DNA of 57,268 nt from an uncultured Synergistales bacterium (lineage in GTDB: Bacteria > Synergistota > Synergistia > Synergistales > Aminobacteriaceae). The DNA lies in contig CAJOEM010000011.1 in the NCBI GenBank assembly GCA_905233725.1, positions 1-57,268 on the forward strand. The letters are read 5' to 3'. The stretch's first letter is position 1. The number at the start of each line of letters is the position of its first letter. Under the pieces are notes generated by a model that saw only the letters and a list, made by a program, of their open reading frames with translations, did not search any database and was not told where the DNA came from. Shown here piece after piece: positions 32,536 to 49,396 of this stretch. The translations under genes and the position numbers were made by a program.

Positions 32536-32556
32536 AATATAAATTAAAATTAACTT

Positions 32557-32660
32557 TCCAGAGACAGCAGGTGCTTCACGCTCAATATCCTGCTCAGGAA
32601 GAGTGAAAATTCTAGCAGCAGAAATTTGAAACTTGCTGTGTTTGGCTTGTCTAGTTAAGA
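32557..32660 (+). promoter_or_regulatory. Ribosomal protein L10 leader (autoregulatory)
   Basis: The rplA-rplJ gap holds the conserved GACAGCAGGTG motif (32562-32572) and a partner region with CCTGCTCAGGAAG (~32592-32604), the L10(L12)4 binding structure used to repress rplJL translation or transcription. This is expected upstream of rplJ. Confidence 0.85.
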
Positions 32661-32665
32661 AAATT

Positions 32666-32698
32666 ACTCCTCCTGAAGAAATTCACGGGGGAGTTTTT
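32666..32698 (+). terminator. Attenuator terminator in the L10 leader
   Basis: Arms ACTCCTCC (32666-32673) and GGGGGAGT (32687-32694) form an 8-bp stem with one G-U, followed by TTTTT. Its place after the L10 leader and before rplJ suggests it is conditional rather than a plain terminator. Confidence 0.75.
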
Positions 32699-32747
32699 GA
32701 TGTGTTAATGTCAGGAAAAAATCAGAACAGGAGGTGAATTAATAAAT

Positions 32748-45987: not shown

Positions 45988-46539
45988 TTATCTCGGGATT
46001 CCTATTCTGTTCAGGGGCCAGTACCTGAAGAATACCGGACCGCGCAAATCTTCGTCCGAAGCAAAGCCCCAAAATCTCCCGTCCTGAGAATTCGGTCTGT
46101 TATCGCCAAGCATGAAATATTTTCCCTCGGGAACAGTGAACGGCACGCTGGGGAAATATCTGCTCGGGCGCATCGTGAAATTGTCGTGATTCTTCACATA
46201 TGGCTCATTTGTAGGCTGATCGTTTATGTAAACGATTCCGTTTTTTATATCAACTTTGTCGCCGGGAATCGCAATCACACGCTTCACAAAATCACGATCA
46301 TGATCCAGCGGGTATCTGAACACGTAAAGCGAGCCTCTAGACGGTTCGAAAAACCAGTTCCAGAATTTCGCAACAAGAACTCTATCACCAACTTCGAGAG
46401 TCGGTATCATTGAGCCGCTCGGAATCCAGAACGCCTGAACGATGAACGTACGAATAATCATCGCGAGAATAAACGCCCAGATTATCGTCTCAAGAGTTTC
46501 GCGCCACCACGGTTTGAAAGTCGCTTCTGCTGCTGCCAA
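45988..46539 (-). CDS. lepB: Signal peptidase I
   Basis: This 183-residue leader peptidase removes Sec and Tat signal peptides, and would process the many exported proteins in this window. It has one N-terminal helix (IIWAFILAMIIRTFIVQAF, ~19-37), catalytic Ser43 in IPSGSMIPTL and Lys86 in DRDFVKRVIA, and GDNRPNSQDGRFWG near the C-terminus. TTG 46539 is preferred: GGAGG lies 9 bases upstream; ATG 46587 is upstream of that site and would be unusual. It is 2 bp upstream of rbgA. Confidence 0.95.
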   Translation of the reverse strand: MAAAEATFKPWWRETLETIIWAFILAMIIRTFIVQAFWIPSGSMIPTLEVGDRVLVAKFWNWFFEPSRGSLYVFRYPLDHDRDFVKRVIAIPGDKVDIKNGIVYINDQPTNEPYVKNHDNFTMRPSRYFPSVPFTVPEGKYFMLGDNRPNSQDGRFWGFASDEDLRGPVFFRYWPLNRIGIPR

Positions 46540-46672
46540 TTTAACATTCCTCCGATTCAAATTCAAATTATATTCCAAAAATCGCAATTATTATACAATC
46601 ACTTGACAGGTGCGAAAGAGTTTTTGTGAGGTATTGTATTATAATTTAGCGAAAAAATCAGGAGGGAATATA

Positions 46673-47548
46673 ATGCGAAAGATTAATTTCACAAAAATGC
46701 ACGGTTGCGGAAATGATTATGTCTACGTGAATTGTTTTGACGGCGAAAATCTGGCGAATGTGAGTGAATCTGAATTATCGGAAATTGCTGTGAAAATTTC
46801 GGATCGGCATTTCGGCATTGGCTCTGACGGCATGATCTTGATTGAACCGGCGAAAAATCCTCAGGCTGATGCGTTCATGAACATGTTCAACTCGGACGGC
46901 TCGCGCGGAAAAATGTGCGGTAACGGCATTCGTTGTGTCGCGAAATATATTTACGATCACGGAATTATCCCAAGTTCACGCAAAAATACGATTATCGAAA
47001 CTCCGGCTGGATTGCGAAAAATTGCTCTCGAAATTCACGGCGGAAAAGTCACAGCTGCGAGTGTCTCGATGGGTGTCGCGAAAATTGACTCAGACTTGCC
47101 CGAAAAAATCTGCGTTGATAACATGAATCTGGAATTTGTCGGCGTAAATGTCGGCAATCCTCACGCGGTGTATTTTCTGGAAGATAACGCTGCATTGAGA
47201 AACCTGGGAAATTTGCACGAACTCGATTTGTCGCGTCTGGGAAAATATTTCGAGAATCACGCGCGATTCCCTGAGCGAGTAAATTCTGAGTTTGTCGAGA
47301 AGCTCCCTGGTGAGAATCAAGAACTCAATTTCCGTGTTTGGGAACGTGGCAGCGGGGAAACTTTGGCTTGCGGAACTGGTGCGACGGCGGCTGCATTTGC
47401 TGCGGTAAAGCTTGGGAAATTTTCCAGAAATTCCGAGATTACGATTCACTTGCTTGGCGGGGATTTGCGCATAAATATTCTCGATGACGACGAGTGCGTG
47501 ATGACTGGTGAAGCTGTTGAAGTTTTCGACGGTGAAATCATGCTCTGA
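46673..47548 (+). CDS. dapF: Diaminopimelate epimerase
   Basis: This 291-residue enzyme converts LL- to meso-diaminopimelate for lysine and peptidoglycan. It has the first catalytic Cys in MFNSDGSRGKMCGNGIRC (~81) and the second in ERGSGETLACGTGATA (~235), plus KMHGCGNDY at 8-16 and GIGSDGMI. ATG 46673 has GGAGGG 7-8 bases upstream. It is divergent from lepB and has TATAAT at 46640-46645. A long intergenic region with an RNA gene on the other strand follows. Confidence 0.97.
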   Translation: MRKINFTKMHGCGNDYVYVNCFDGENLANVSESELSEIAVKISDRHFGIGSDGMILIEPAKNPQADAFMNMFNSDGSRGKMCGNGIRCVAKYIYDHGIIPSSRKNTIIETPAGLRKIALEIHGGKVTAASVSMGVAKIDSDLPEKICVDNMNLEFVGVNVGNPHAVYFLEDNAALRNLGNLHELDLSRLGKYFENHARFPERVNSEFVEKLPGENQELNFRVWERGSGETLACGTGATAAAFAAVKLGKFSRNSEITIHLLGGDLRINILDDDECVMTGEAVEVFDGEIML

Positions 47549-47573
47549 TTCCGAAAAATTTCACACATAACAC

Positions 47574-47765
47574 AAAAGAGCCTCGGGGGAGACTCCTTAT
47601 GTTTGAGGGGGGTAAAACGATCTTTTTCAATCCTGCTCTCGGGAATTCATGAGAGCGACAAGTGAACAAACCGAGGGATATTCCTCTATACAATCCACGT
47701 CCTAACTGCAGGTTTAAGACGATTATTTGTCATTTGTAATTTTTCTGATTGATTTGTTCGTTACG
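47574..47765 (-). ncRNA. Unassigned standalone small RNA, ~192 nt
   Basis: On the minus strand a consensus promoter (47799-47772) and a rho-independent terminator (arms 47595-47589 and 47584-47578, then TTTT at 47577-47574) enclose ~192 bases without a convincing open frame. Strong pairing is visible: GAACAAATC (47759-47751) with GGTTTGTTC (47672-47664), 9 bp with one G-U; a hairpin CGTCTTAA/TTAGGACG (47721-47714 with 47705-47698, one G-U); GAGG/CCTC (47686-47683 with 47676-47673); and GCTCTC/GAGAGC (47656-47651 with 47640-47635). It faces dapF end to end and is too far from a minus-strand gene to be a leader. I do not recognise the family: it lacks RNase P, tmRNA and SRP signatures, and 6S is not supported by the end pairing. 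Confidence 0.72.
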
Positions 47766-47771
47766 TCAAAC

Positions 47772-47799
47772 ATTATAGATTAAAAATTCATATTGTCAA
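47772..47799 (-). promoter_or_regulatory. Consensus sigma-70 promoter of the small RNA
   Basis: TTGACA (47799-47794), a 16-bp spacer and TATAAT (47777-47772): both hexamers are perfect, the best promoter in the window. Expected start ~47765. Confidence 0.88.
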
Positions 47800-47968
47800 T
47801 ACGTTCTGCAAAAATTTTTTTCGCGCGGAATTTTGCGATGATTGTATTATGCATTTAATCGGTAATATTCGCGTGTAAGTTTGAAGCGTCCGAATGTAAA
47901 ATATGTGAGAATTTGAGAGATTGCTCCGGATTTTTGGGGCAAATTTTTATTAGGAGAGCATTTATAAA

Positions 47969-49396
47969 TTGTTGGACTGGTTTGTAGATTTTATTCATAA
48001 CGGCTCACCGGCTGCTGTCGGGATTATAACGATTGCGCTGATGTTGATTTGCGGCTTTGCGCTCACGAGATTAACTAGACTTCTGAAGCTTCCAAATGTT
48101 ACGGCTTATATCATAACGGGAATTTTGATCGGACCGTATTGCCTGAATCTTGTGCCATCAGCTGTGACGGATAATACGGGATTTTTGCCGGATATTGCGT
48201 TGGCGTTCATTGCGTTCAGTACGGGACAATTCTTCAGGTTGAACGCGCTCAAAGGCAACGGAATGAAAGTGTTAATTATCACTATTCTTGAGGCGTGTGT
48301 TGCGTCAGTGTTTGTTTTCATCGCCACGTATTATATTTTGCGAATGGATTTTGCGTTTTCGTGTGTGTTGGCTGCATTGGCTTCGGCGACTGCTCCGGCT
48401 TCGACGATGATGACAATTCGACAGACTGGTGCAAAAGGCGATTTTGTGAACACGCTGCTGCAGGTTGTGGCACTCGATGACGTTGTGGGATTACTCGCGT
48501 ACAGTATTGCTATCTCGATTGCTCTTGCTACGTCGATCTCGGGAACTGGTTCGGGATTTGATATTAAGAACGTAATTTTTCCGCTGCTAATCAATCTTGC
48601 GAGCATAATCACTGGCGCATTACTAGGAGTTGTGATGAAATTCCTGATTCCGGAAAAGCGTTCGAAAGATAATAAATTAATACTATCCGTCGCGATATTA
48701 TTAGGCTTCTGCGGAATTTGCCAGATTCTCGGAGTTTCACCGTTGCTTGGCTGCATGTTCATGTCAACGGTTTATATTAATATCACGGATGACGATAATT
48801 TGTTCAAGCAGCTAAACAGTTTCAGCCCACCGATCCTGTTATTATTCTTCGTGAGATCGGGCGTGTGTTTTGATCTCGGAGCGTTGACAGGCTCTCATGC
48901 TTCATCTGGCTCTGTCTCGTTATTAATGCTCGGTGTCGTGTATTTCCTGATTCGCATTTTGGGAAAATATGTCGGAGCGTTTCTTGGCTGCTTTATAACA
49001 CACAAAGACAAGCTCGTGCGCAATTATCTCGGACTTGCTCTTATCCCTCAGGCCGGTGTTGCTATCGGACTTGCTGAACTCGGTGCGAGAACTCTGGGAG
49101 GCGAAACTGGCAGCGCGCTTCGAACGGTCATACTTGCGTCAAGTGTTCTGTACGAGTTAATCGGACCTGCGAGTGCGAAAATCTCACTGTCACTCTCGCA
49201 TTCGTACGATAACACAGCAACTGACGATGCAAAACCCAAACTCAATCCAAAAGACGAAGAGAAATTAATGGTGAACTTGCTAATCGAACGCATTCGTGAA
49301 ATCCAGAGCGAAATTCCTCAGCACGAATTACAGCCAGCGTTCTATGACTCTCAGGCAACACAGCCAATCCAGAGACATTTACATTCGCCAAGATAA
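47969..49396 (+). CDS. Cation:proton antiporter, CPA2 family
   Basis: This 475-residue protein has about 12 hydrophobic helices and the CPA2 pattern: TAYIITGILIGPYCLNLVP in helix 2-3, SATAPASTMMTIRQTGAKG with the ion-coordinating part, ALDDVVGLLAYSIAISIA, and LALIPQAGVAIGLAELG near the C-terminus. A ~60-residue polar C-terminal tail follows, without a TrkA-N domain. It exchanges Na+ or K+ for protons across the inner membrane. TTG 47969 follows AGGAG by 12 bases. A terminator follows. The 200-base upstream gap is AT-rich with no other gene on this strand. Confidence 0.93.
   Translation: MLDWFVDFIHNGSPAAVGIITIALMLICGFALTRLTRLLKLPNVTAYIITGILIGPYCLNLVPSAVTDNTGFLPDIALAFIAFSTGQFFRLNALKGNGMKVLIITILEACVASVFVFIATYYILRMDFAFSCVLAALASATAPASTMMTIRQTGAKGDFVNTLLQVVALDDVVGLLAYSIAISIALATSISGTGSGFDIKNVIFPLLINLASIITGALLGVVMKFLIPEKRSKDNKLILSVAILLGFCGICQILGVSPLLGCMFMSTVYINITDDDNLFKQLNSFSPPILLLFFVRSGVCFDLGALTGSHASSGSVSLLMLGVVYFLIRILGKYVGAFLGCFITHKDKLVRNYLGLALIPQAGVAIGLAELGARTLGGETGSALRTVILASSVLYELIGPASAKISLSLSHSYDNTATDDAKPKLNPKDEEKLMVNLLIERIREIQSEIPQHELQPAFYDSQATQPIQRHLHSPR

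Follow-up and report, generated by a model that had tools for sequence, protein, structure and literature searches.

What RNA, if any, is made from a minus-strand locus that begins with a perfect consensus promoter and ends against dapF, and on what would it act? The locus lies in a window of 57,268 nucleotides, the whole stretch of DNA analysed, from an uncultured Synergistales bacterium. Our reading, to which we give a probability of about 0.6, is that it encodes a trans-acting translational repressor of an iron-sulfur (Fe-S)/redox regulon, a small RNA (sRNA) which probably blocks the ribosome-binding sites of iron-sulfur and energy-metabolism enzyme genes. The features discussed are the following:

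47772-47799, minus strand: promoter TTGACA-N16-TATAAT, 12/12 consensus matches, -35 and -10 boxes retained in nearly all of 30 aligned genus loci
47755-47772, minus strand: inverted repeat TGTTTG-N6-CGAACA, a possible operator over the start site, near-invariant across the genus and also in three other genera
47569-47767, minus strand: sRNA transcript, its ends predicted from the promoter and terminator positions (fold z -3.3; match to model R2)
47751-47759, minus strand: 5' arm of a long-range helix, GAACAAAUC, from the fold and the helix columns of the covariation alignment
47698-47721, minus strand: hairpin seen in the fold, with variable arms and a conserved loop, ACCUGCA, kept in most relatives
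47671-47679, minus strand: C-rich motif 1, AUCCCUCGG (CCCUCG in most relatives), from the alignment of relatives
47664-47672, minus strand: 3' arm of the long-range helix, GGUUUGUUC, from the fold
47635-47656, minus strand: extra hairpin GCUCUC...GAGAGC of the window copy, lacking in most relatives
47602-47617, minus strand: C-rich motif 2, UUUUACCCCCCUCAAA, unpaired in the fold, the proposed target-pairing segment
47569-47598, minus strand: intrinsic terminator, with a hairpin of 10 pairs at 47598-47575

The original prediction had described perfect TTGACA and TATAAT boxes at 16 bp spacing, a rho-independent terminator, an end against dapF and a 9-bp helix between the 5' region and the middle of the RNA, and all four were recovered. 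The promoter (47799-47772), of the sigma-70 type, matches the consensus at every position, and six other promoter-like sites within 46400-48200 each score 9. It predicts a start near 47765-47767, for an RNA of about 190-200 nt. The terminator-like hairpin has a U-tract that is weak in the window's genome and strong in relatives, and the transcript is convergent with dapF, whose end is at 47548. The fold of the RNA (-52.2 kcal/mol, z = -3.3) was equalled by 1 of 200 shuffles and contains the announced helix, GAACAAAUC (47759-47751) with GGUUUGUUC (47672-47664). The claimed absence of an open frame is nearly right: a mechanical TTG ORF of 51 aa (47538-47693, minus strand) overlaps the RNA, and no frame is conserved because the middle of the RNA differs widely in length among relatives. 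The locus is thus predicted to be a structured, terminated and non-coding minus-strand transcript, encoded by a single-copy gene, whose expression we infer.

A search of Rfam 15 returned no family at gathering score at the sRNA and noise only at E <= 10; the loci of 16 relatives were also without family match at the sRNA, only SRP RNA being found elsewhere in them. The RNA, whose family had not been recognised in the original prediction, belongs to no known one. A 6S-like regulator had been left as a possibility, and the sRNA does resemble 6S RNA in its size, strong promoter and long-range closing helix. However, the 6S model RF00013 did not match the locus at E <= 10, and a separate candidate on another contig (G000:C5:24232-24365; 41.3 bits, gathering 46.4; E 4.5e-7) is likely the 6S RNA of the window's genome. 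The exclusion of tmRNA is in agreement with ARAGORN, which predicted two tRNAs but no tmRNA across the window. The literature on Synergistetes RNAs yielded the SLH motif, a riboswitch candidate, and not the present sRNA; no described trans-acting regulatory sRNA of Synergistota was found in the literature searched, which covered few subscription journals. The sRNA is previously undescribed. Elsewhere in the window, a ribosomal protein L10 leader was detected at 32540-32709 (plus strand; 47.7 against a gathering score of 44).

The RNA had been called an orphan; it is instead a conserved family, found with a consensus query in 39 of the 43 genus genomes (no match in the remaining four) and, with the covariance models R1 and R2, in four genomes from three other genera of the same family. 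These models gave no further matches among 188 genomes of the phylum. By blastn, the promoter and 5' end were detected in 34 of the 37 genus genomes first tested and in 0 of 24 genomes from other families. R2, whose 43 training sequences include the window copy, matches the window at 47604-47771 with an E of 3.3e-8; this copy is among the most diverged of the family. The carriers are mainly Synergistaceae of the rumen and other ruminant guts, one of them labelled Fretibacterium. Both the sequence and the helices are conserved, with covariation. In the alignment of 43 sequences, which leans towards structure because it was fitted to the model and in which the window's own row is misplaced at the 3' end, 90.7% of pair cells are standard and both sides have changed in 18 of 26 pairs (shuffle mean 9.4, slid controls <=11). 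In G094, the helix CGAACAA/UUGUUCG is replaced by CAAACAA/UUGUUUG, a compensatory change seen by eye. Weak second matches to the sRNA model, bearing a AGUUUUACCCCCUUCA-like segment, occur in L101 (G023:C52:6165-6207), there without promoter, and at G031:C22:169735-169823, and are possibly decayed copies. Pattern matches outside the family, on GTDB contigs of Vibrionaceae, Polyangiaceae and Sunxiuqinia, have neither the promoter nor the 5' part and are consistent with chance.

The gene could be suspected of serving a neighbour as a cis element, that is as the leader or terminator of the antiporter or dapF, given that a divergent Na+/H+ antiporter gene lies upstream in 19 of 30 loci. The neighbour is a different one in the other 11 of the 30, and the opposite flank varies as well (dapF, glycosyltransferases, a HemW-like protein, SRP RNA or other genes). 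Since the flanking genes vary, the sRNA gene is free-standing, in agreement with the earlier statement that it serves no downstream gene. A cis leader of the antiporter is ruled out by strand and synteny. The RNA has a promoter and a terminator of its own, on the opposite strand, and is very improbable as a cis element of any neighbour, an explanation largely refuted by synteny.

The original prediction had overlooked that the RNA carries near-invariant C-rich motifs, matching the ribosome-binding sites of redox genes. The architecture common to the family is TATAAT-GTTTGACRTAACGAACAAATACGA, a variable hairpin (loop ACACCUGCAAG), CCCUCGUUCUUGUUCGAUCGUU, UUUUACCCCCCUCA and the terminator; among the C-rich motifs, near-invariance chiefly concerns the unpaired UUUUACCCCCCUCA ahead of the terminator. 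The C6 motif ACCCCCCUCA is found in 39 of the 43 aligned rows; the window copy, with an incomplete row in the alignment, has it as well.

The genome of the window was rebuilt from 56 of its 57 contigs (1,869,860 of 1,872,660 bases) and UUUUACCCCCCUCAAA was scored for duplex formation with the sequence surrounding every predicted start, the ORF calls being crude. The top-scoring sites are ribosome-binding sites, for example UUUUGAGGGGGA ahead of AUG, and many redox genes have as their ribosome-binding site the complement of the C-rich motif, GAGGGGG or GAGGG-A-GGGU. The real motif gave 26 sites at <= -16 kcal/mol, a modest excess because the maximum reached in 40 permutations of the flanks around C6 was 23. 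Classing by regular expression picked out only nine Fe-S proteins and separated the real motif poorly from permuted ones; therefore, controls labelled from Pfam and matched for energy of pairing with the anti-Shine-Dalgarno sequence (mean -13.2 against -13.1) were used. Labels were assigned by hand from the Pfam tables. Among the 40 top-ranking predicted targets, 12 are iron/Fe-S proteins and none of these ranks below 26; the 40 controls contain 2, namely a radical SAM protein and an iron alcohol dehydrogenase (one-sided Fisher p = 0.003). The twelve are PFOR (pyruvate:ferredoxin oxidoreductase), RnfC, [FeFe] hydrogenase, a NADH/4Fe-4S subunit, a HydG-like radical SAM protein, fumarase, an aconitase/LeuC-family protein, a NfnA-like Fe-S flavoprotein, a ferredoxin-domain aldo/keto reductase, a 2Fe-2S FAD oxidoreductase, desulfoferrodoxin and a rubrerythrin fusion; the fumarase family of this list and the aconitase family carry [4Fe-4S]. 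Other members of the best 40 are transporters, kinases (sugar kinases), citrate lyase, sigma factors and a Cas protein. The ribosome-binding site of a Cas_Csd1 gene on G000:C8 (L150:1311-3203) is predicted to pair well with the sRNA.

Two target families, PFOR (30 loci) and RnfC (29 loci), were followed across species. Their sites, GAGGGAGGGU or GAGGAGGGGU for PFOR and UUGAGGGGAGUG for RnfC, are kept in about 30 species despite diverged leaders. In PFOR, the intervening A shifts position and the six G are constant in about 25 of 30 loci (four of which were counted by reading the leaders, the pattern match being incomplete there), which is what pairing of G6 with the invariant C6, the A being bulged out, would lead one to expect. 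PFOR and RnfC score about -17 against the sRNA, whereas RnfD and the antiporter, in the same loci and with similar anti-Shine-Dalgarno strength, score -5 to -6; an acyl-CoA-synthetase-like family is intermediate at -13.5. The citF and TRAP transporter sites were not counted because part of them may be coding sequence of the upstream gene. In two other species, G010 and G032, redox genes occur again among those with GAGGGGG-N3-11-ATG. Judged by eye from the N-terminal sequences, they encode a hybrid-cluster-like protein, ferredoxin-like proteins, double-cubane dehydratase-like proteins, a flavin reductase and the 2Fe-2S oxidoreductase.

These results are compatible with a mechanism in which the 5' segment would pair with the middle of the RNA around the hairpin, and the resulting compact fold would leave UUUUACCCCCCUCAAA single-stranded beside the terminator. 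In the cell, this segment would bind the G-rich Shine-Dalgarno sites (GAGGGGG, or GAGGGAGGGU with a single A bulged out) of mRNAs for Fe-S and redox enzymes, among them PFOR, RnfC, [FeFe] hydrogenase, fumarase and the aconitase/LeuC-family protein, and would thereby prevent translation of these mRNAs when the iron or redox state of the cell requires it.

Part of the signal is accounted for by the tendency of any C-rich RNA to pair with G-rich Shine-Dalgarno sites, and permuted C-rich motifs likewise favour ferredoxin-motif genes. The RNA might then be a real trans-acting C-rich sRNA with a general or otherwise specialised role (carbon flux, growth phase, NADH), as the presence of transporters, citrate lyase, sugar kinases and sigma factors among the targets would also allow, and the Fe-S bias would reflect a chance use of G-rich Shine-Dalgarno sites by redox genes. 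We consider this rather unlikely: the bias persists after matching for anti-Shine-Dalgarno strength, and the PFOR and RnfC sites remain complementary though the A shifts. The long-range closing helix, the near-invariant single-stranded motifs and the single gene copy could also suit a structured decoy for RNA polymerase or for an RNA-binding protein, in the manner of 6S RNA or CsrB, the C-rich motif being a protein site. Such a decoy would however leave the complementarity to redox ribosome-binding sites unexplained, its C6 site is single and not repeated, and with a 6S candidate elsewhere and no 6S match at the locus we regard it as improbable.

The control of the proposed repressor RNA may lie in the inverted repeat directly after the -10 box, which is perfect in L102. 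Its near-invariance, although part of it is probably untranscribed, suggests that TGTTTG-N6-CGAACA is an operator. No other exact copy was found in the genome; near matches, with one or two mismatches, are mostly far from gene starts and were not retained as further copies. The usual link to iron is missing because no Fur (PF01475) was found in nine genus genomes including that of the window (G000); all four order relatives have one to four. Hfq (PF17209) was not detected in 13 genomes by a search whose control recovered the E. coli and B. subtilis proteins. Several of the assemblies searched for Fur and Hfq are incomplete, that of the window being 97.9% complete. The signal for the sRNA may be iron, redox state or NADH. 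More tentatively, one sRNA could coordinately repress the pyruvate-ferredoxin-hydrogenase-Rnf module in this anaerobe genus devoid of detectable Fur and Hfq, its own synthesis being under a repressor bound at TGTTTG-N6-CGAACA.

By computation, the locus has the attributes of C-rich, Shine-Dalgarno-type sRNAs, namely a free-standing gene with promoter and terminator, a conserved single-stranded C-rich segment and conserved complementarity to the ribosome-binding sites of a functional gene set. Those of Fur-controlled iron-sparing and of Hfq-dependent sRNAs were not seen, neither protein having been found in the nine and 13 genomes searched. IsrR of Staphylococcus is conserved genus-wide, has a Rho-independent terminator and conserved single-stranded C-rich regions, counts Fe-S enzymes, aconitase included, as 7 of its 23 top predicted targets and is repressed by Fur via two Fur boxes (PMC9410917). 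The present sRNA is similarly free-standing and terminated, with C-rich single-stranded regions and a predicted enrichment in Fe-S targets, but its promoter carries another repeat in place of Fur boxes and no Fur was found. FsrA of Bacillus subtilis prevents the expression of iron-containing enzymes under Fur control, assisted by the FbpABC chaperones (PMC9410917); iron-containing enzymes as targets, here predicted ones, are the likeness, Fur control and FbpABC the difference. RsaE/RoxS of Firmicutes has several C-rich regions able to pair with G-rich Shine-Dalgarno sites and targets in redox metabolism (PMC4409812), traits seen or predicted here also, but differs in its ResDE control, structure and phylum. 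The Rfam search revealed no sequence relation of the sRNA to IsrR, FsrA or RsaE/RoxS, and the resemblance is therefore functional convergence at most. If our reading is correct, the C-rich iron/redox sRNA strategy would have been invented independently once more, in rumen anaerobes without detected Fur or Hfq, and hydrogen and ferredoxin metabolism would be tied to RNA regulation; the repeat, if truly an operator, would be a specific DNA bait for the regulator.

The leader of the divergent antiporter was considered as a partner of the sRNA and rejected: GGGGGUAAA is found in some relatives, is absent in the window and is part of a leader hairpin. In the window, this leader (47921-47968, plus strand) has a terminator-like hairpin just ahead of the Shine-Dalgarno site. 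In many relatives (L003-L026) the hairpin is ACCCC...GGGGUAAAUUUUU; after it comes GCAAACAA, which is the complement of the start UUGUUUGC. From its sequence, the leader seems to combine an attenuator with a hairpin that sequesters the start.
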